A stretch of DNA of 64,000 nt from Peptoclostridium sp. (GTDB lineage: Bacteria > Bacillota > Clostridia > Peptostreptococcales > Peptostreptococcaceae): assembly GCF_009881055.1 (NCBI RefSeq), contig NZ_WXFG01000022.1, forward strand, positions 1 to 64,000, written 5' to 3'. A program made the translations under genes and the position numbers. A model generated the notes under the pieces. The model was not told the origin of the DNA, made no database searches, and saw only the letters and a list, made by a program, of their open reading frames with translations. Positions 6,678-13,804 of the stretch are shown one piece after another (the first letter of the stretch is position 1; every line of letters starts with the position of its first letter).

Positions 6678-7802
6678 ATGAAGATAAAAGCTCCCATCAG
6701 AATTGACAGGAAGACAAAGAACCTGGCAAAAAGAATAAGTCCGGGAGAAATTGCAGTAATAAACCACAGAGACATTGACGAGGTGGCCGCCAATTCACTT
6801 GTGGAAAAGAAAATAAAGGCCGTCGTAAATGCAGACTTGTCTATAAGCGGCAAATACCCGAACAAGGGGCCTGAGATTCTCAGCGAAAAGGGCATAATAC
6901 TGATAGACAACGCCGGCATTCACATATTTGAGGTGCTGAAGGAAGAAGACATAATAGAGATTGATGAAGACGGCAGTATTTACAAGGACAGTGAGCTGAT
7001 AGGCAAGGGCGAGATTCTCAACGAAGACAGGATAAAGGAGTTGCTGGAGATTGCATACGGCAACCTTTCCCAGGAGCTTGAAAACTTCATAGATAACACC
7101 ATAGAGTACGCGAAGAAGGAAAAAGGTTTCATATTAGGGGACATAGGCATGCCCAAAACATCCGTAGACATGCAGGGCAGGCACGCGCTGGTTGTGGTGA
7201 GGGGACAAAACTACAAGGACGACCTGAGCGCCATACTGTCTTATATAGAAGAAGTAAAGCCGGTACTTATAGGCGTGGACGGCGGTGCGGACGCTCTTTT
7301 GGAATTTGGCTACAAGCCGGACATAATAGTGGGCGACATGGACAGCGTAAGCGACAAGAGCCTTCAAACCAGCAAGGAGATAATTGTCCACGCGTATCCT
7401 GACGGCAGGGCACCTGGACTCAAAAGAGTCGAGGACATAGGCCTGAAGCCCATAGTGTTTCCAGCTATTGGAACAAGCGAGGACATAGCCATGCTCTTGG
7501 CATACGAAAATGGTGCGGAGCTGATTGTGGCGCTTGGAACGCATTCTAACATAATAGACTTCCTTGAAAAGGGCAGAAAAGGTATGTCAAGCACATTCCT
7601 GGTGCGAATGAAGATTGGCTCCAAGCTCATAGACGCTAAAGGCGTAAGCATGCTCTACAGGAGCCAGCTCAAGATCAAGTATATATGGGGCCTGATAATT
7701 GCGGCTCTCTTTCCTGTGTTCATTGTGGCATATCTTTCGCCGCCGATACAGCAAGTGCTCAGGATAATGGAGCTGAAAATGAAATTTTTGATGGACCTGT
7801 AA
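6678..7802 (+). CDS. steA: SteA-like protein (thiamine-pyrophosphokinase-related fold, C-terminal membrane anchor)
   Basis: It has 374 residues from ATG 6678, which follows GAAGGAG; a longer TTG-started reading is rejected. Residues 165-325 resemble the nucleotide-binding fold of thiamine pyrophosphokinase, with DGGADALL (201-208) and GDMDSV (219-224). One hydrophobic helix lies at about 335-353, and the short tail would follow the membrane segment. This layout matches the SteA family, which in Corynebacterium pairs with SteB at the division site. The next gene is indeed a SteB/MctB-like protein. Thiamine pyrophosphokinase activity is unlikely given the fused N-terminal domain and anchor. The role in cell envelope or division is inferred from family and context. 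Confidence 0.82.
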   Translation: MKIKAPIRIDRKTKNLAKRISPGEIAVINHRDIDEVAANSLVEKKIKAVVNADLSISGKYPNKGPEILSEKGIILIDNAGIHIFEVLKEEDIIEIDEDGSIYKDSELIGKGEILNEDRIKELLEIAYGNLSQELENFIDNTIEYAKKEKGFILGDIGMPKTSVDMQGRHALVVVRGQNYKDDLSAILSYIEEVKPVLIGVDGGADALLEFGYKPDIIVGDMDSVSDKSLQTSKEIIVHAYPDGRAPGLKRVEDIGLKPIVFPAIGTSEDIAMLLAYENGAELIVALGTHSNIIDFLEKGRKGMSSTFLVRMKIGSKLIDAKGVSMLYRSQLKIKYIWGLIIAALFPVFIVAYLSPPIQQVLRIMELKMKFLMDL

Positions 7803-7829
7803 ATGAGGAATTGAAAAGGGGAGAAAACA

Positions 7830-8696
7830 ATGCTGATAAATATGAAATACTATATAACTACAATTGGGGCTATTTTCATAGCTCTTGGCATAGGAATACT
7901 CATAGGTTTCAATCTCGATGGGGATATTATGATAAGCGAGCAGCAGCTTGAAATGGTGAATAAACTCGAGGAGAAGATTTCAGAGGTAAAGGCACAAAAC
8001 GAGACGCTTAGCGGAACAATATCAGGCATGGAAAAACAGAGGGCAGATATTGAAAAATATATTGAATACAGCAGCGAACATGTCATAAAGGACAGGCTTG
8101 CAGGCAAAAATATTGCAATCATACAGACTACAGAGGACTATTTCTATCCAAATACAGGTGCATTTTTGCAGAAGGCGGGAGGCGGCGTGCCTTTTGAGCT
8201 GCTGCTAAAGGACAGCCTTATTAAGGATCTGGATGTACAGGCCTTTAATCAGGAATTCGGCACCTCGTTTGCTACAAGCGCAGACATTGTAAATCATCTT
8301 TGCAAGACGATTTTTGAAGAAAAGAACATGGTATTTGCAAATACGCTTGCACAAAAGGGCTATGTCCAGATAAATGCGGGCAGCATGAATCTGAAAAATA
8401 TTGACGCGGTAGTGATAGAATCGGGCGGAACCAGGGAAGACAAGGAAAAGATGCAGCTCTTCGACGGGAATGTAATAGAATACCTCAAGGGCAAGAATGT
8501 CAGGGTTGTGGGCGTTGAAAGAACTGATGTGGAGTTTTCGCATGTGCCTTTCTTCAAAGCTGCAAAAATATCGAGCGTTGACAATGTAAATAATATACTG
8601 GGAGAAATTTCTCTTGTGATGGCGCTGGACGGCAAGAGCGGCCATTTCGGAGAGAAGGAAACGGCGGAGGCAATACTTCCGCAAGAGTTAAACTAG
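7830..8696 (+). CDS. steB: SteB/MctB-like membrane-anchored coiled-coil protein (DUF3186 type)
   Basis: It has 288 residues. The N-terminus is a single membrane helix (about residues 8-27, TTIGAIFIALGIGILIGF). A short coiled coil (about 37-70) and a soluble domain follow. This layout and the pairing with steA match the family called copper transporter MctB in mycobacteria and SteB in corynebacteria. A single anchor and an outside coiled coil fit a structural partner of SteA better than a pore. The start is ATG 7830 after GGGGAG, 27 bases past steA. Confidence 0.75.
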   Translation: MLINMKYYITTIGAIFIALGIGILIGFNLDGDIMISEQQLEMVNKLEEKISEVKAQNETLSGTISGMEKQRADIEKYIEYSSEHVIKDRLAGKNIAIIQTTEDYFYPNTGAFLQKAGGGVPFELLLKDSLIKDLDVQAFNQEFGTSFATSADIVNHLCKTIFEEKNMVFANTLAQKGYVQINAGSMNLKNIDAVVIESGGTREDKEKMQLFDGNVIEYLKGKNVRVVGVERTDVEFSHVPFFKAAKISSVDNVNNILGEISLVMALDGKSGHFGEKETAEAILPQELN

Positions 8697-8709
8697 GCGA
8701 GGTGAAAAG

Positions 8710-9381
8710 ATGCGAATAAGCGTATTGATTCCTGCGTACAACGAGCAGGACAGAATAGGTGCAACACTAGAGGGGATTATTGGCCTCAATTCCATAGACG
8801 AGATTGTGGTAGTAGACGACGGTTCTGCAGACCGCACGTATGAGATAGCTTCCTCGTATGAAGGCGTTAGTTCATACAGGCTTGAACAGAACAGGGGCAA
8901 GGGTTATGCAGTTAACTTCGGCCTCTCAAAGATAAAGGGTGCGGATATAATAGTATTTCTAGATGCTGATGTAGGCTCGACATCAAGCGAGGTGCAAAAG
9001 CTTATTGAACCCATATTAAACGGAGAGTGCGACGTCACTATAGCGGCGTTTCCTCCGGCTGCAAAAAAAGGCGGCTTCGGCATGGTAAAGAGACTGGCAA
9101 GGGCTGGCGTGAAACTATTCACAGGCGCCGAACTGAGCGCAACGCTTTCGGGACAAAGAGCGTTCAAGAAAGAAGTACTCGAGATATTCGACACGATACC
9201 TTCAGGCTACGGGGTTGAGGTTGGAATGACAATAGACATTCTAAGGAAAGGCTTCAAAGTCAAGGAAGTGCCCGTGTACATGACGCACAACGAAACCGGA
9301 AGGGATATAAGCGGCTTCAAGCACAGGGGCAGGCAGTTCTACCATATTTCGGTTATTCTGTTGAAGAAGCTTTTCAATTAG
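8710..9381 (+). CDS. Family 2 glycosyltransferase
   Basis: It has 223 residues with a GT-A fold. The opening is VLIPAYNEQDR. The nucleotide-binding aspartates lie in VVVDDGSADRT (Asp36, Asp37), and the metal-binding pair is FLDAD (Asp85, Asp87). There is no transmembrane tail, so it resembles short polyprenyl-phosphate sugar transferases or nucleotide-sugar synthase-like members. The next gene is a MraY/WecA-like membrane transferase, so the product is probably a lipid-linked sugar used at the envelope. The actual sugar is unknown. The start ATG 8710 follows GGCGAGGTG, 13 bases after the previous stop. Confidence 0.8.
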   Translation: MRISVLIPAYNEQDRIGATLEGIIGLNSIDEIVVVDDGSADRTYEIASSYEGVSSYRLEQNRGKGYAVNFGLSKIKGADIIVFLDADVGSTSSEVQKLIEPILNGECDVTIAAFPPAAKKGGFGMVKRLARAGVKLFTGAELSATLSGQRAFKKEVLEIFDTIPSGYGVEVGMTIDILRKGFKVKEVPVYMTHNETGRDISGFKHRGRQFYHISVILLKKLFN

Positions 9382-9392
9382 AATGAGGAGGA

Positions 9393-10196
9393 ATGGATTT
9401 GACAATCATTTCGTTTATACTTGGATTCATATCGACTAAATTATTCATGGGATTCTTTAAGGGGATGCTGGTGCAGTCAGGCATAGTAAGGCAAAACTAT
9501 ATGGGCACCATGATTCCCGTGGGGATGGGCCTTGTATTTCTGCCCTACATCATAGTAAACGCATGCATAGCCACGTATTTCTTTGATGAAAAGCTTGTGC
9601 CCTACTATGTGCTTGGCGTTATAGCTATGAGCCTTGCAGGCGTGGTGGATGACCTTGTGGGCGATAGGAGCTCAAGCGGATTCAAGGGGCATTTCAAGGC
9701 GCTCTTCAAGGGCACGCTCACAACAGGGGCGTTCAAGGCACTCTTTGGCGGAGCTGTGGCATTTTTGATATCGCTCTCATTCACAAAGGACATAGGCGAA
9801 ATAATACTCAACACACTCCTTATAGCGCTGGCGACTAATTTTTTCAATCTGCTGGACCTAAGGCCGGGAAGGGCGCTTAAGGTCTATTCGGCATGCTGCA
9901 TTCCCGTGCTGATATTATCCTCAGAGATTTCAAGGCTTTTGCTGGGAGGGATGCTCGCTTCGGCGCTGGCTTATTTCTGGGATGACATAAAGGCCAGGAC
10001 AATGATGGGTGATTCGGGCTCGAATGTACTGGGGGCGTCAATAGGCATAATTGCTGCATATGAGTTTGGGATGTGGACGAAGACAGCCCTCCTTATAGCA
10101 CTTATACTTGTTCACGCAGTTTCGGAAAAATATTCAATAACAAAGATAATCGAAAACAACAGACTGCTCAACTATATTGACAGGCTCGGGAGGTAA
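9393..10196 (+). CDS. MraY/WecA-like polyprenyl-phosphate sugar-1-phosphate transferase homologue
   Basis: A polytopic membrane protein of 267 residues, shorter than typical MraY or WecA (about 320-360). It keeps three family signatures: an Asp-Asp pair in GVVDDLVGD (86-87), NLLDLRPGRALK (152-163), and GDSGSNVLG (206-214). These are the metal- and prenyl-phosphate-binding loops. Family members transfer a sugar-1-phosphate from UDP-sugar to undecaprenyl phosphate. Context (the GT2 gene before, SteA/SteB upstream) suggests an undescribed lipid-linked glycan step. The start is ATG 9393 after GAGGAGG. Confidence 0.72.
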   Translation: MDLTIISFILGFISTKLFMGFFKGMLVQSGIVRQNYMGTMIPVGMGLVFLPYIIVNACIATYFFDEKLVPYYVLGVIAMSLAGVVDDLVGDRSSSGFKGHFKALFKGTLTTGAFKALFGGAVAFLISLSFTKDIGEIILNTLLIALATNFFNLLDLRPGRALKVYSACCIPVLILSSEISRLLLGGMLASALAYFWDDIKARTMMGDSGSNVLGASIGIIAAYEFGMWTKTALLIALILVHAVSEKYSITKIIENNRLLNYIDRLGR

Positions 10197-10200
10197 TCAT

Positions 10201-11280
10201 ATGGACATGCTCAGCAAGAAGCTGGCAGTAGTTAAATCTGTAATAGGCGAATCAGATGAAATGCAGGAGCTGGCAGTACTAGTAGGAGATAAGGACGAGA
10301 AGGCCATATCATATATTCCCCTTACAGGAAGGGCAAAGCCGGGGCAAAGCGTGCTGCTTAACACGACAGCTGTGGAGCTGAGCCTAGGCACAGGGGGCTT
10401 TCACTTTGTGATAGCTAATCTGGATGAACCTGAATCGAGCATGACTCCGGGCGGGCACATAATGAAGCTAAGATATACGCCATATCAGATAAAATGCATG
10501 GCTGTTGAGGAGCAGGACAGCAAGTACCACGAGCAGATGCAGCTTTTCGAGTCCCTAGAGAAGCTGCCTGTTGTCGTTGGAACTCTTCACAGTCAGCTTG
10601 TGCCGTTTGCATGCACGGCCAAAAGCCTGATGCCTGCTAAAAGTATAACTTATATAATGACAGACGGGGCGGCGCTTCCAATGTACCTTAGCAAAAATGT
10701 AAAGGAACTAAAAAGCAAGGGTCTAATAGATCACACCATAACATGCGGCAACTCCTTCGGGGGCGACTATGAGTGTGTCAATGTATACAGTGCCATGATA
10801 TTTGCAAAACAGGTGTTGATGTCTGACATGATTTTCATATGCATGGGCCCAGGGATTGTGGGCACGGGCACAAAATACGGCTTTACAGGGATTGAGCAAG
10901 CATATATACTTGACGCGGCCGGCAGGCTGGGAGGCACTCCCATAGCTGTTCCTAGAGTCAGCTTTGCCGATAAGAGACAAAGGCACACAGGCATATCGCA
11001 CCATACTGTGACAGTGCTTCGAGATGCGGTATGCAGCAGAGTGGTTGTTCCTGTAAATGTGCAGGATGGCGAAAAGTTGGCTGTCTTGGAAAAGCAGCTT
11101 ATGGAAAGTGGTCTGTTGGAGCTGCATGAAATCTATATGGTAAAATCAGACTCCACAAAAGCTTCAATGGATGAATTCGGAATGAAAGTTAAGAGCATGG
11201 GCAGGGGTTATGACGAGGACGAGGAGTTTTTCAAATCATCTTCGGGCGCAGCCAGCTACATAGCGGAGGTACTCCTATAA
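10201..11280 (+). CDS. DUF3866 family protein
   Basis: It has 359 residues from ATG 10201, which follows GGGAGG at 10188-10193; a longer start inside the previous gene is rejected. The protein is soluble, with no signal peptide or membrane helix. A Gly-rich stretch (MGPGIVGTGTKYGFTG) resembles a nucleotide- or phosphate-binding loop, and RVSFADKRQRHTGISHHT looks like a conserved active-site block. I recognise it as DUF3866, whose function is not established. It overlaps the NUDIX gene by one base (TAATG), so the two are translationally coupled. Confidence 0.7.
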   Translation: MDMLSKKLAVVKSVIGESDEMQELAVLVGDKDEKAISYIPLTGRAKPGQSVLLNTTAVELSLGTGGFHFVIANLDEPESSMTPGGHIMKLRYTPYQIKCMAVEEQDSKYHEQMQLFESLEKLPVVVGTLHSQLVPFACTAKSLMPAKSITYIMTDGAALPMYLSKNVKELKSKGLIDHTITCGNSFGGDYECVNVYSAMIFAKQVLMSDMIFICMGPGIVGTGTKYGFTGIEQAYILDAAGRLGGTPIAVPRVSFADKRQRHTGISHHTVTVLRDAVCSRVVVPVNVQDGEKLAVLEKQLMESGLLELHEIYMVKSDSTKASMDEFGMKVKSMGRGYDEDEEFFKSSSGAASYIAEVLL

Positions 11281-11873
11281 TGGTTATAAAAGAAGAGACT
11301 ATGAACAGCGAGATTATATACAACGGAAAAATAGTTAACCTGAGGATAGACACTGTGGAGCTGCCACAGCAAAAATATTCCAAACGCGAGATTGTTGAAC
11401 ATCCCGGGGGTGTTGCCGTAATAGCCATAACAGATGAGGGCAAGGTGATAATGGTAAGGCAGTATAGAAAAGCTGTAGAGGATGCAGTCCTTGAGATACC
11501 TGCCGGAAAGCTTGATCCGGGCGAAGATCCGAGAGAATGCGCTGCAAGAGAGCTCAAGGAGGAAACAGGGTACGAGGCTGATACGCTCGAGCATCTTGTG
11601 GACTTTTATTCATCTCCCGGCTTCACTAATGAAAGAATACACATATATCTGGCAAAAGGTCTAAGAGATGGTCTGGCACAACCAGATGAAAATGAGTATA
11701 TTGATATAGAACTCTACGATATGCAGACACTTTTGGACATGGCATCGAAAAACATGATAAAGGATGCCAAAAGCCTGGTGGCCTTGTTGTATGCAAGCAG
11801 TTACAATAGATATCATTGCCAAAAGTGTATTGTTAGGAGATGTATGAATGGAAAAAATTTTGTCGGATTATAA
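11280..11873 (+). CDS. nudF: NUDIX hydrolase, ADP-ribose pyrophosphatase type
   Basis: It has 197 residues. A complete NUDIX box starts at GKLDPGEDP and ends in RELKEETGY, with the REU-x-EE core intact. The family hydrolyses ADP-ribose to AMP and ribose 5-phosphate with Mg2+. The C-terminal 20 residues overlap the start of the xerD-like gene by 26 bases and contain an odd Cys/Arg-rich tail (CQKCIVRRCMNGK) not usual in the family. That tail may be a by-product of the overlap. Substrate is inferred from the family. Confidence 0.85.
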   Translation: MVIKEETMNSEIIYNGKIVNLRIDTVELPQQKYSKREIVEHPGGVAVIAITDEGKVIMVRQYRKAVEDAVLEIPAGKLDPGEDPRECAARELKEETGYEADTLEHLVDFYSSPGFTNERIHIYLAKGLRDGLAQPDENEYIDIELYDMQTLLDMASKNMIKDAKSLVALLYASSYNRYHCQKCIVRRCMNGKNFVGL

Positions 11874-12729
11874 AGAATATATACAGAATGAAAAAGGGCT
11901 TTCAAGGAGCACTGTATTTTCATATGAGAATGACTTGAAGAAATACTTTGAATACCTGGAATCGTGCAATATTGATATAATGGATGTCAATGAAAGTGAT
12001 TTGGAAGGCTTTGTGGCGCACATAAAGACGCTTGCTATTTCGCAGGCCACAGTCTCCAGAATCGTATCGTCCGTAAAATCGATACACGAGTATATGTATG
12101 AAGCTAGACTCTCAGGCAGAAACCCTGCAAAAAAAATCAAAAAACCGAAAATAGAAAGAGAACAGACGGCGGATATATTAGTGGAAGAAGAGATTGTCAG
12201 GATGCTTTCAATACCTGATATCGATGGCTGTATGGGAATGAGGGACAAGGCTATACTCGAGATAATATATGGAACGGGCATGAAGGTGTCAGAAATAGTA
12301 TCTCTAAATGTAGACGATGTAGATGTACAAATGGAGTATATAAACTGCGATGGAACAAGGAGCAAAAGAGTCGTCCCGCTTGGACGTTCTGCGCTTGACT
12401 GTGTGAATTCCTATATAGAAATAGCCAGACCATCGCTTATAAAGCCGTGCTCCGGAAGCGCTTTATTTCTGAACCTAAAGGGCGACAGGCTTACAAGACA
12501 AGGACTTTGGAAGATCATAAAGGGATATGCAAGGGAAGCAGGAATACAAAAGAATGTCACCCCGTCGGTGCTGCGCAATTCCTTTGCAGTTCATATGCTC
12601 AGCAACGGTGCAGACATAAGGATTGTAAGCCAGCTGCTTGGAAATTCCAACATTTCATGCCTGCAGCCCTATGTGCAGTCCAGAAAGAATGCCAGGATGG
12701 AGCTCAAAAGCAAGCATCCCAGAGGATAA
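11848..12729 (+). CDS. xerD: XerD-like tyrosine recombinase homologue with lost catalytic residues
   Basis: It has 293 residues, full length for XerD, with the SAM-like core-binding domain (1-100) and the C-terminal catalytic domain. It ends in the XerD-typical HPRG. Compared with E. coli XerD, the first catalytic Arg is Lys146 (GTGMKVSEI for GLRVSEL). The beta-hairpin Lys of GKGNKER is absent (DGTRSKR). The first His of HxLR is Ser240 (PSVLRNSF). The second His is Asn266 (LGNSNIS for LGHS). Arg243 and Tyr275 remain. The ORF is intact, so it is kept as a protein but is probably unable to recombine DNA. It overlaps the NUDIX gene. A functional Xer recombinase should exist elsewhere. Confidence 0.85.
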   Translation: MEKILSDYKEYIQNEKGLSRSTVFSYENDLKKYFEYLESCNIDIMDVNESDLEGFVAHIKTLAISQATVSRIVSSVKSIHEYMYEARLSGRNPAKKIKKPKIEREQTADILVEEEIVRMLSIPDIDGCMGMRDKAILEIIYGTGMKVSEIVSLNVDDVDVQMEYINCDGTRSKRVVPLGRSALDCVNSYIEIARPSLIKPCSGSALFLNLKGDRLTRQGLWKIIKGYAREAGIQKNVTPSVLRNSFAVHMLSNGADIRIVSQLLGNSNISCLQPYVQSRKNARMELKSKHPRG

Positions 12730-12793: not shown

Positions 12794-13804
12794 ATGAAAA
12801 AGATACTTGTTATTTTGGCTTTAGCAGCAGCATCAGGCGTTGTCATAGCCGCCTTGGCGTTCAACGCATTGACAGGCCCGTATGACAAAGGCAGCAAGGA
12901 ATACGAGATTGTAGACATTCCACAGGGAGCCTACATTGGAAAAGCTGCCGGCATACTCCATGAAAACAAACTCATAAGGAGCGAGTTGCTATTCAGGGTA
13001 GTGGCAAAGCTCGAAGGCGATCCGGGAATAAAAGCAGGAAGATACAAGATATTCAGGTCCTACTCCAACAGCGAAATACTCAGCATGCTCGAGGAAGGCA
13101 AGGTATACAACGACAATATTGCCGTCACAATACCCGAAGGCTTTGAAAGCTACAAGATAGCCGAGCGCCTTGAAAAGCTGGGCCTGGCAAATGAGGCCAG
13201 GTTTATGGAGCTTGTTGGAAAGCCGGAGGCGTTCGAATCAAAAGTCGATTTCATAAAGAGAGAAGGCTTGAGCAGCCTTGAGGGATATCTTTTCCCAGAC
13301 ACATATTTTTTCAAAAAAGGCACATCTGAGGAAGAAATCATTGAGACCATGCTCAAGAGGTTCGAGCAGGTATACGGCCAAAGCTACCAAAAAAGGCAGC
13401 TTGAGCTGGGTAAATCCCTCAATGAGGTGATAAGCATGGCTTCCATAGTCGAGAGGGAGGCCAAAATGGACTCGGAGCGGGATATGGTTTCTGCTGTGTT
13501 TTACAACAGACTTAAAATCGGGCAGAGACTCCAGTCGTGCGCTACCGTGCAGTATATCCTCAAGGAGAGAAAACAGAAGCTGTCGGATGCGGATTTGCTG
13601 ATAGAATCGCCCTACAACACGTACAAGTACGCCGGGCTTCCGCCTGGACCTATCGCATCACCAGGCAAGAAATCAATCGAGGCCGCCTTGTATCCGGCGA
13701 ACGTGGATTACTTGTATTTCGTTGCAAAAAAGGACGGAAGTCATACTTTTTCGCGGACATACGATGAGCATTTGAAAGCAAAAGCAAAAAACTTTGCGGA
13801 ATAG
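12794..13804 (+). CDS. mltG: Endolytic murein transglycosylase MltG
   Basis: MltG cleaves nascent glycan strands at the membrane and sets their length. It has 336 residues: an N-terminal anchor at about 3-24, a LysM-like region, then the catalytic YceG domain. The catalytic Glu is Glu220 in ASIVEREAK, corresponding to Glu218 in E. coli. The family block SPYNTYKYAGLPPGPIASPG is present. The start ATG 12794 follows AGAGGTCAG. It heads a unit with trmR and trhP, the same order as yrrL-yrrM-yrrN/O in Bacillus. Confidence 0.93.
   Translation: MKKILVILALAAASGVVIAALAFNALTGPYDKGSKEYEIVDIPQGAYIGKAAGILHENKLIRSELLFRVVAKLEGDPGIKAGRYKIFRSYSNSEILSMLEEGKVYNDNIAVTIPEGFESYKIAERLEKLGLANEARFMELVGKPEAFESKVDFIKREGLSSLEGYLFPDTYFFKKGTSEEEIIETMLKRFEQVYGQSYQKRQLELGKSLNEVISMASIVEREAKMDSERDMVSAVFYNRLKIGQRLQSCATVQYILKERKQKLSDADLLIESPYNTYKYAGLPPGPIASPGKKSIEAALYPANVDYLYFVAKKDGSHTFSRTYDEHLKAKAKNFAE

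Follow-up and report, generated by a model that had tools for sequence, protein, structure and literature searches.

A divergent MraY-type transferase accompanies SteA in Bacillota and Actinomycetota genomes and may place SteA in an undecaprenyl-linked glycan pathway

A seven-gene cluster encoding SteA, SteB, a family-2 glycosyltransferase (GT2), a short GT4-like membrane transferase (GT4), a DUF3866 protein, a NUDIX hydrolase and a XerD homologue was analyzed at positions 6678..12729 of the window, a 64,000-nucleotide stretch (positions 1 to 64,000 of contig NZ_WXFG01000022.1) from the genome of a Peptoclostridium sp. (2.04 Mb, 33 contigs). In the home phylum, Bacillota, GT4 is a more faithful companion of SteA than SteB, GT2 or DUF3866, and SteA, GT4 and usually GT2 are regarded with fair confidence, on comparative sequence grounds, as one functional unit. 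GT4 and GT2 are predicted to build an undecaprenyl-phosphate-linked sugar chain whose synthesis SteA likely joins or senses, a reading toward which we lean with some reserve. SteA has been studied as a mycobacterial and corynebacterial cell-separation factor with a nucleotide pocket and SteB-independent functions. In the clostridial phylum its most constant genomic partner is a divergent MraY-type transferase, which is also common in Actinomycetota, and the SteA pocket was intact at every locus where this transferase was found; the partnership gives a concrete place to seek the ligand and reaction of SteA and, if true, a pathway for an essential gene cluster of Clostridioides difficile.

Open reading frames of the window were listed and scanned for families (Table 1). 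All seven genes named in an earlier reading of the letters alone (the sequence-only reading) were present on the + strand, separated by gaps of at most 27 bases or joined by two short overlaps, and their families were confirmed. The conservation across phyla asserted by the same reading was borne out in titled, home-phylum and Actinomycetota samples. In the home-phylum sample of 199 genomes, SteA exceeded its cut-off in 132 and GT4 gave a strong match in 131, with both in 130 and neither in 66 (Fisher p 3e-49, kinship ignored). The GT4 gene lay downstream of steA, on the same strand and within 2.5 kb, in 128/128 genomes with both on one contig. In two genomes with SteA and no GT4 (G103, G137) the contigs end within 1 kb, and in G127 GT2 and GT4 stand at a contig start. 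One SteA locus was fetched for 131 of the 132 genomes, some pieces being short; on these, GT4 was found in 127, GT2 in 125, SteB in 110, DUF3866 in 57 and NUDIX in 41, and the four loci without GT4 have at most 1,215 bases downstream. Among the 79 home pieces with room, DUF3866 was on 31 and NUDIX on 22. The scan of titled genomes gave 80 SteA loci, mostly Bacillota, of which 68 had at least 8 kb downstream and contained GT4 (68), GT2 (67), SteB (66), DUF3866 (58), NUDIX (38) and XerD (40); four titled loci without GT4 have at most 1,837 bases downstream. The nearest titled SteA is that of Peptoclostridium litorale (Bacillota, Clostridia, Peptostreptococcales; 77% identity).

A further sample of 198 genomes, assigned to Actinomycetota via one member (G199/L079, Slackia heliotrinireducens), contained SteA over the cut-off in 90, a strong GT4 match in 84 and both in 81. 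Where the pair shared a contig, GT4 was downstream on the same strand in 75/75, at a distance within 2.5 kb in 46, of 2.5-5 kb in 3 and further in 26. Of the 90 loci, 68 were fetched, and the 58 with at least 8 kb contained GT4 (53), SteB (53), GT2 (33), DUF3866 (31), NUDIX (40) and XerD (42). Confinement of the GT2, GT4 and DUF3866 genes to the neighbourhood of steA in a single species, on which the proposed functional link would have foundered, does not hold, since GT4 accompanies steA in 130/132 home and 81/90 Actinomycetota SteA genomes. Because the GT4 gene is downstream on the same strand in most SteA genomes of two phyla, SteA likely partners enzymes that are predicted to assemble a lipid-carried sugar for the cell wall.

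SteB proved less constant. Of the 21 home loci that gave no SteB match, 20 have the start of GT2 at most 52 bases from the end of SteA, and SteB is therefore absent from that place; these 20 loci keep SteA, GT4 and an intact SteA pocket. In the remaining locus (L222), 959 bases between SteA and GT2 leave room for a SteB possibly overlooked by the profile. Home loci with these losses indicate that SteB and, in four of them, GT2 can disappear from a locus that retains GT4. Four home loci (L138, L139, L156, L241) have a short SteB match of ~210-240 amino acids and no GT2, with SteA-GT4 kept.

GT4 was placed in the polyprenyl-phosphate sugar-1-phosphate transferase (PNPT) superfamily by its PF00953 score (cut-off 27) and its MraY/DPAGT1 fold. 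The DD, NLxDxxPGRA and GDSGS motifs listed by the sequence-only reading are present in the window protein, and the DD pair and the GD.GS Asp, which we take to be catalytic, are conserved in 244/244, 244/244 and 243/243 sequences. GT4 shares with MraY, WecA/TagO and DPAGT1 the fold, the DD pair, the first Asp of NxxNxxD and the GD.GS motif, but differs from them in its length, its tie to steA and the replacement of the MraY motif NxxNxxDGxDG by NxxNLxDxRPGR, with P158 at the position of the second MraY Asp in 244/244 sequences. Its score against the MraY equivalog model was 23.5 bits (TIGR00445, cut-off 192); a canonical MraY (342.7 bits) and a separate WecA-like gene are encoded elsewhere in the genome. 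By enzyme class rather than by sequence, GT4 plus GT2 resemble mycobacterial WecA plus WbbL, likewise a MraY-superfamily transferase followed by a family-2 glycosyltransferase. WecA plus WbbL make the arabinogalactan linkage unit of mycobacteria.

Among solved structures, GT2 is closest to GpgS and dolichol-phosphate mannose synthase, and its score against the GpgS model is 71.6 bits (NF010496, cut-off 262). GT2 and GT4 are fused in one frame in two Actinomycetota genomes only (L282, L295). Other apparent GT4 fusions of 360-850 amino acids, mostly in GC-rich genomes (L112, L113, L117, L119, L176 and others), were judged by eye to be spurious upstream frame extensions. Separate action of the two enzymes, GT2 working like GpgS or dolichol-phosphate mannose synthase on a phosphate acceptor and GT4 on another substrate, would suit these solved relatives and the loss of GT2 from loci that retain GT4, but the two fusions and the joint presence of GT2 and GT4 in 67/68 titled and 77/79 home loci with room make it unlikely, if still worth some weight.

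An undecaprenyl-linked glycan is proposed as the product because of the GT4 fold and conserved residues, the GT2 fusions and the MurJ flippase gene that joins 13/68 Actinomycetota loci. GT4 would use a nucleotide sugar to load undecaprenyl phosphate with a sugar 1-phosphate, GT2 would add the next sugar with release of UDP or GDP, a MurJ-type flippase would turn the product outward, and the product would become part of a secondary wall polymer, either as its linkage unit or as a repeat. SteA, a dimer anchored in the membrane and furnished with a nucleotide pocket, may catalyze a phosphate transfer or sense the nucleotide set free by GT2; SteB, in genomes that have it, may relay the state across the membrane to septal wall remodelling. 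What the sequence data show directly are the genes present and their order, their conservation, the fold class, the changed motifs and the fusions. The tie of SteA and SteB to a lipid-linked glycan, as the sequence-only reading had it, is upheld in part. The MraY/DPAGT1 fold, the fusion of GT2 to GT4 and the nearby MurJ genes favour it, but the tight pair is SteA and GT4, and neither SteB nor DUF3866 is as constant as was assumed, with no room for SteB in 20/131 home loci and DUF3866 on 57/131 pieces, some of them short.

Window SteA matches NF040608 with 519 bits over residues 3-371 (cut-off 150) and is thus a SteA; against the thiamine pyrophosphokinase (TPK) model TIGR01378 it scores 44.3 bits over residues 173-234 only (cut-off 76.4). 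The acids of the window protein in or near the pocket are D201, D220, D222 and D269, which, by analogy with TPK structures, we take to be metal ligands of the fold, an assignment most tentative for D269. All four are D in each of the 259 loci with GT4 (247 distinct SteA sequences), and they are also kept in 14 loci cut by contig ends. They are broken only in L158, L159, L160 and L162, four of the five loci truly without GT4; one further locus is truncated at the pocket. Of the 31 loci without a SteB match, two or three of which simply end before SteB, 29 keep the acids, the other two being L159 and the truncated L323. The pocket state thus appears to track the transferases rather than SteB, because SteB-less loci keep the acids while GT4-less loci mostly break them. 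The solved SteA chains are altered at this site, reading GTGAD/GDPDQ in MtSteA (9HMY) and DGAAD/GNPTG in CgSteA (9HMZ) as against DGGAD/GDMDS. The pocket has been likened to the nucleotide site of thiamine pyrophosphokinase, and GDP or UDP is reported to stabilize CgSteA (PMC12977500). Both an enzyme and a nucleotide sensor were considered, and the preservation of the acids speaks for catalysis or metal-nucleotide binding by SteA. One home-phylum genome (G090) has two SteA genes (C73, C153), each with its own downstream GT4, and the SteA matches of G006 and G193 contain one internal stop codon. SteA and SteB stretches lie in overlapping frames in L175; SteA-SteB fusions have been published for Nocardioidaceae (PMC12977500).

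The five GT4-less loci (L158-L162) contain SteA, SteB (4/5), a PyrG-sized gene, NUDIX (3/5) and XerD, with a RecN-sized gene upstream (4/5); in L158 the upstream and downstream genes were identified as RecN and PyrG. This is the order given by the sequence-only reading for Mycobacterium tuberculosis (Rv1697-mctB-pyrG-NUDIX-xerD), and these loci are called Mycobacteriales-type here on the basis of gene order. In L164-L168 a RecN-sized gene is followed by SteA, SteB, GT2, GT4, a ~540-amino acid gene, a ~370-amino acid gene, DUF3866, NUDIX and XerD; in L164 the upstream gene is RecN and the two intervening genes encode PyrG and a PepT-like peptidase. Because this order matches, the clostridial and actinobacterial versions have one common gene order, and on the simplest reading the Mycobacteriales-type locus would have lost GT2, GT4 and DUF3866. 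The SteAB pairs of Corynebacterium glutamicum and mycobacteria (cgp_1603-1604, Rv1697-Rv1698) resemble the window cluster in families, adjacent genes, membrane-anchored SteA and coiled-coil SteB, but differ in the altered pocket of their solved SteA chains and in gene content, the five loci of the mycobacterial kind having yielded no GT2, GT4 or DUF3866. In Mycobacteriales-type genomes, with the transferases gone and the SteA pocket decayed, a SteAB switch on wall hydrolysis would be left as the reduced form. In its boldest form, which we put forward only tentatively, SteA outside Mycobacteriales would be a working TPK-fold enzyme of an undecaprenyl-linked glycan pathway that is essential and so far unrecognized, a new PNPT subfamily marked by an LDxRPGR site would take the committed step of this pathway, and the mycobacterial and corynebacterial SteAB switch would be a remnant after transferase loss, its SteA site decayed to a nucleotide sensor.

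Several observations weigh against a SteA-linked glycan pathway. SteB is as frequent as GT4 in Actinomycetota loci with room (53/58 each), and MurJ lay beside the cluster in 0/131 home and 0/80 titled loci, being seen in Actinomycetota only. The GT2 step is not universal: 31/68 Actinomycetota loci have no GT2, among them 25 with at least 8 kb of downstream sequence, which include the five GT4-less loci, and 4 home loci that are not truncated lack it as well. The substrate and even the activity of GT4 are uncertain because the second Asp of NxxNxxDGxDG is missing, and two genomes (G308, G329) carry a divergent GT4-like gene and no SteA match. The correlation between pocket and GT4 may reflect a single evolutionary event in one clade, L161 has four intact acids in the absence of GT4, and CgSteA is reported to bind GDP/UDP though two of the four acids are changed (PMC12977500). 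The distance correlation of SteA with GT4 (0.854) compares with 0.88 for GT2, 0.868 for DUF3866 and 0.793 for XerD. For C. difficile, CRISPR interference (CRISPRi) is polar and, according to the authors, morphology cannot assign a pathway (PMC12548448).

Control of cell separation by SteAB has been described in corynebacteria and mycobacteria (PMC6705760, PMC12977500), where published accounts concern septal SteAB and RipA control. A copper transport role of MctB is argued against, and SteAB is reported in Clostridia adjoining spo0A, with a suggested role in sporulation (PMC12977500); the word 'glycosyltransferase' is absent from the main text of that article. A SteAB-RipA mechanism as in Mycobacteriales, in which a coiled-coil NlpC/P60 hydrolase is bound by SteB and the transferases are bystanders, would agree with the true family membership of SteA and SteB and with the chaining seen on C. 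difficile knockdown (PMC12548448). We judge it improbable: SteA with its pocket intact is retained next to GT4 in the 20/131 home loci without room for SteB, mycobacterial SteA (TapA) works independently of SteB (PMC12338722), and no coiled-coil NlpC/P60 hydrolase was seen in the host genome, both of whose NlpC/P60 proteins carry SH3 domains and no coiled-coil domain listed by Pfam, other hydrolases not having been searched.

The C. difficile genes CDR20291_1053-1057 are annotated as a pyrophosphokinase (373 amino acids), an exported protein (291), a GT2 (230), a glycosyl transferase (274) and a DUF3866 protein (355), and are reported as essential by transposon sequencing (PMC12548448). They correspond to the window cluster in order, annotation and protein sizes, a match made without sequence comparison; no C. 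difficile entry was among the best 120 matches of the protein search. Four cluster genes targeted by CRISPRi gave strong viability defects, chaining and short swollen cells; the article gives the cluster no pathway, and its main text contains no mention of SteA by name (PMC12548448). Membership in the pathway of the PS-II polymer, suggested by similar knockdown morphologies in its tables, was set aside as a lead only, because the authors state that morphology does not assign pathways (PMC12548448). No description of a link between SteA and GT2/GT4 was found in the openly licensed literature, judged mainly from abstract openings. Within that literature, the claim that the link is undescribed stands for the SteA-transferase link, but SteAB in Clostridia (PMC12977500) and, under matching annotation, the essential cluster of C. 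difficile (PMC12548448) were already in print.

It is also conceivable that steA, GT2 and GT4 have merely been kept together in an old, well-expressed recN-to-xerD locus with no common process. RecN, PyrG, the PepT-like peptidase, DUF3866, NUDIX and XerD surround them in L164, with genes of the same sizes in L165-L168, and distance matrices of six families (SteA, SteB, GT2, GT4, DUF3866 and XerD; 63 loci) gave correlations of 0.61-0.88, high for several cluster members, without discrimination. This explanation is decidedly improbable, given that GT4 is within 2.5 kb of steA in 128/128 home genomes, as against 31/79 and 22/79 home pieces with room for DUF3866 and NUDIX, that the presence and absence of SteA and GT4 coincide, 66 genomes having neither, and that GT2-GT4 fusions exist.

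Table 1. Features of the steA cluster and the gene that follows it (positions in the window)
Product	Positions	Strand	Length (amino acids)	Description and family evidence
SteA	6678..7802	+	374	TPK-fold cytoplasmic protein with C-terminal membrane segment; NF040608, PF12555, PF04263
SteB (MctB family)	7830..8696	+	288	PF11382, 111.7 bits
GT2	8710..9381	+	223	Family-2 glycosyltransferase; PF00535, 101.3 bits; SGQR + HR..Q signature
GT4	9393..10196	+	267	GT4-like short membrane transferase, MraY/WecA/DPAGT1 superfamily; Glycos_transf_4 PF00953, 34.6 bits
DUF3866 protein	10201..11280	+	359	PF12982, 443.6 bits
NUDIX hydrolase	11280..11873	+		NudE/AdpP-like; PF00293, 77.7 bits
XerD homologue	11848..12729	+		Altered catalytic residues; PF00589, 126 bits; TIGR02225, 270 bits
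MltG (YceG)	12794..13804	+		Lytic transglycosylase, next gene; PF02618, 311 bits; TIGR00247, 269 bits

SteB exceeds the PF11382 gathering cut-off of 25.6 bits, and the profile built from the cluster also matches the solved MtSteB and CgSteB chains; by analogy, SteB would have an N-terminal membrane segment and a coiled coil. The structure model of the DUF3866 protein has a mean predicted local distance difference test score (pLDDT) of 90.3 and weak fold matches, and the NUDIX protein scores under the cut-offs of the named NCBIfam models. The XerD homologue belongs to the tyrosine recombinase family, but, as a correction to the sequence-only reading, its TIGR02225 score falls below the XerD cut-off of 329.6. 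Its catalytic columns read K, S, R, N, Y, where the usual set is R, H, R, H, Y. The set also deviates in 22/103 relatives (in L273 by truncation only), 17 of which come from the window's nearest loci (L002-L017, L020). The window's branch, with the relatives closest to it, may have lost recombinase activity, because the catalytic residues are replaced across these loci.

The open reading frames 5′ of steA were read by eye, with no family scan, as argB, argF and argD, and spo0A is on a contig other than that of steA. In L003 (Alkalithermobacter), spo0A is upstream of steA with a CCA tRNA nucleotidyltransferase gene between them, and NUDIX and xerD are separated by a SpoIIM-like gene (L003:15183-15800) that scores only 43.9 bits against a cut-off of 100.2. 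A sporulation function, proposed for clostridial SteAB downstream of spo0A (PMC12977500), would accord with L003 but is very improbable, as the window steA follows arg-like genes with spo0A on another contig, many genomes of the Actinomycetota sample have the cluster, and C. difficile cannot grow vegetatively without the matching genes (PMC12548448). Many home loci hold a gene of SpoIIM-like size between NUDIX and xerD; there is none in the window, where the two genes overlap. MltG comes after XerD or DUF3866 in several relatives, by neighbour reading.

The large Actinomycetota genomes G329 and G308 (loci L326 and L327) gave no SteA match but carry a divergent GT4-like gene with a GT-B-like gene after it. 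A ~750-amino acid protein, apparently exported, is encoded downstream of SteA in 19/68 Actinomycetota loci (for example L169:9271-11502, L170, L171, L272, L273, L284 and L288), and no Pfam match was obtained for the three examined (L169, L284, L288). In G379, GT4 follows this protein on a 3.7-kb piece without SteA.

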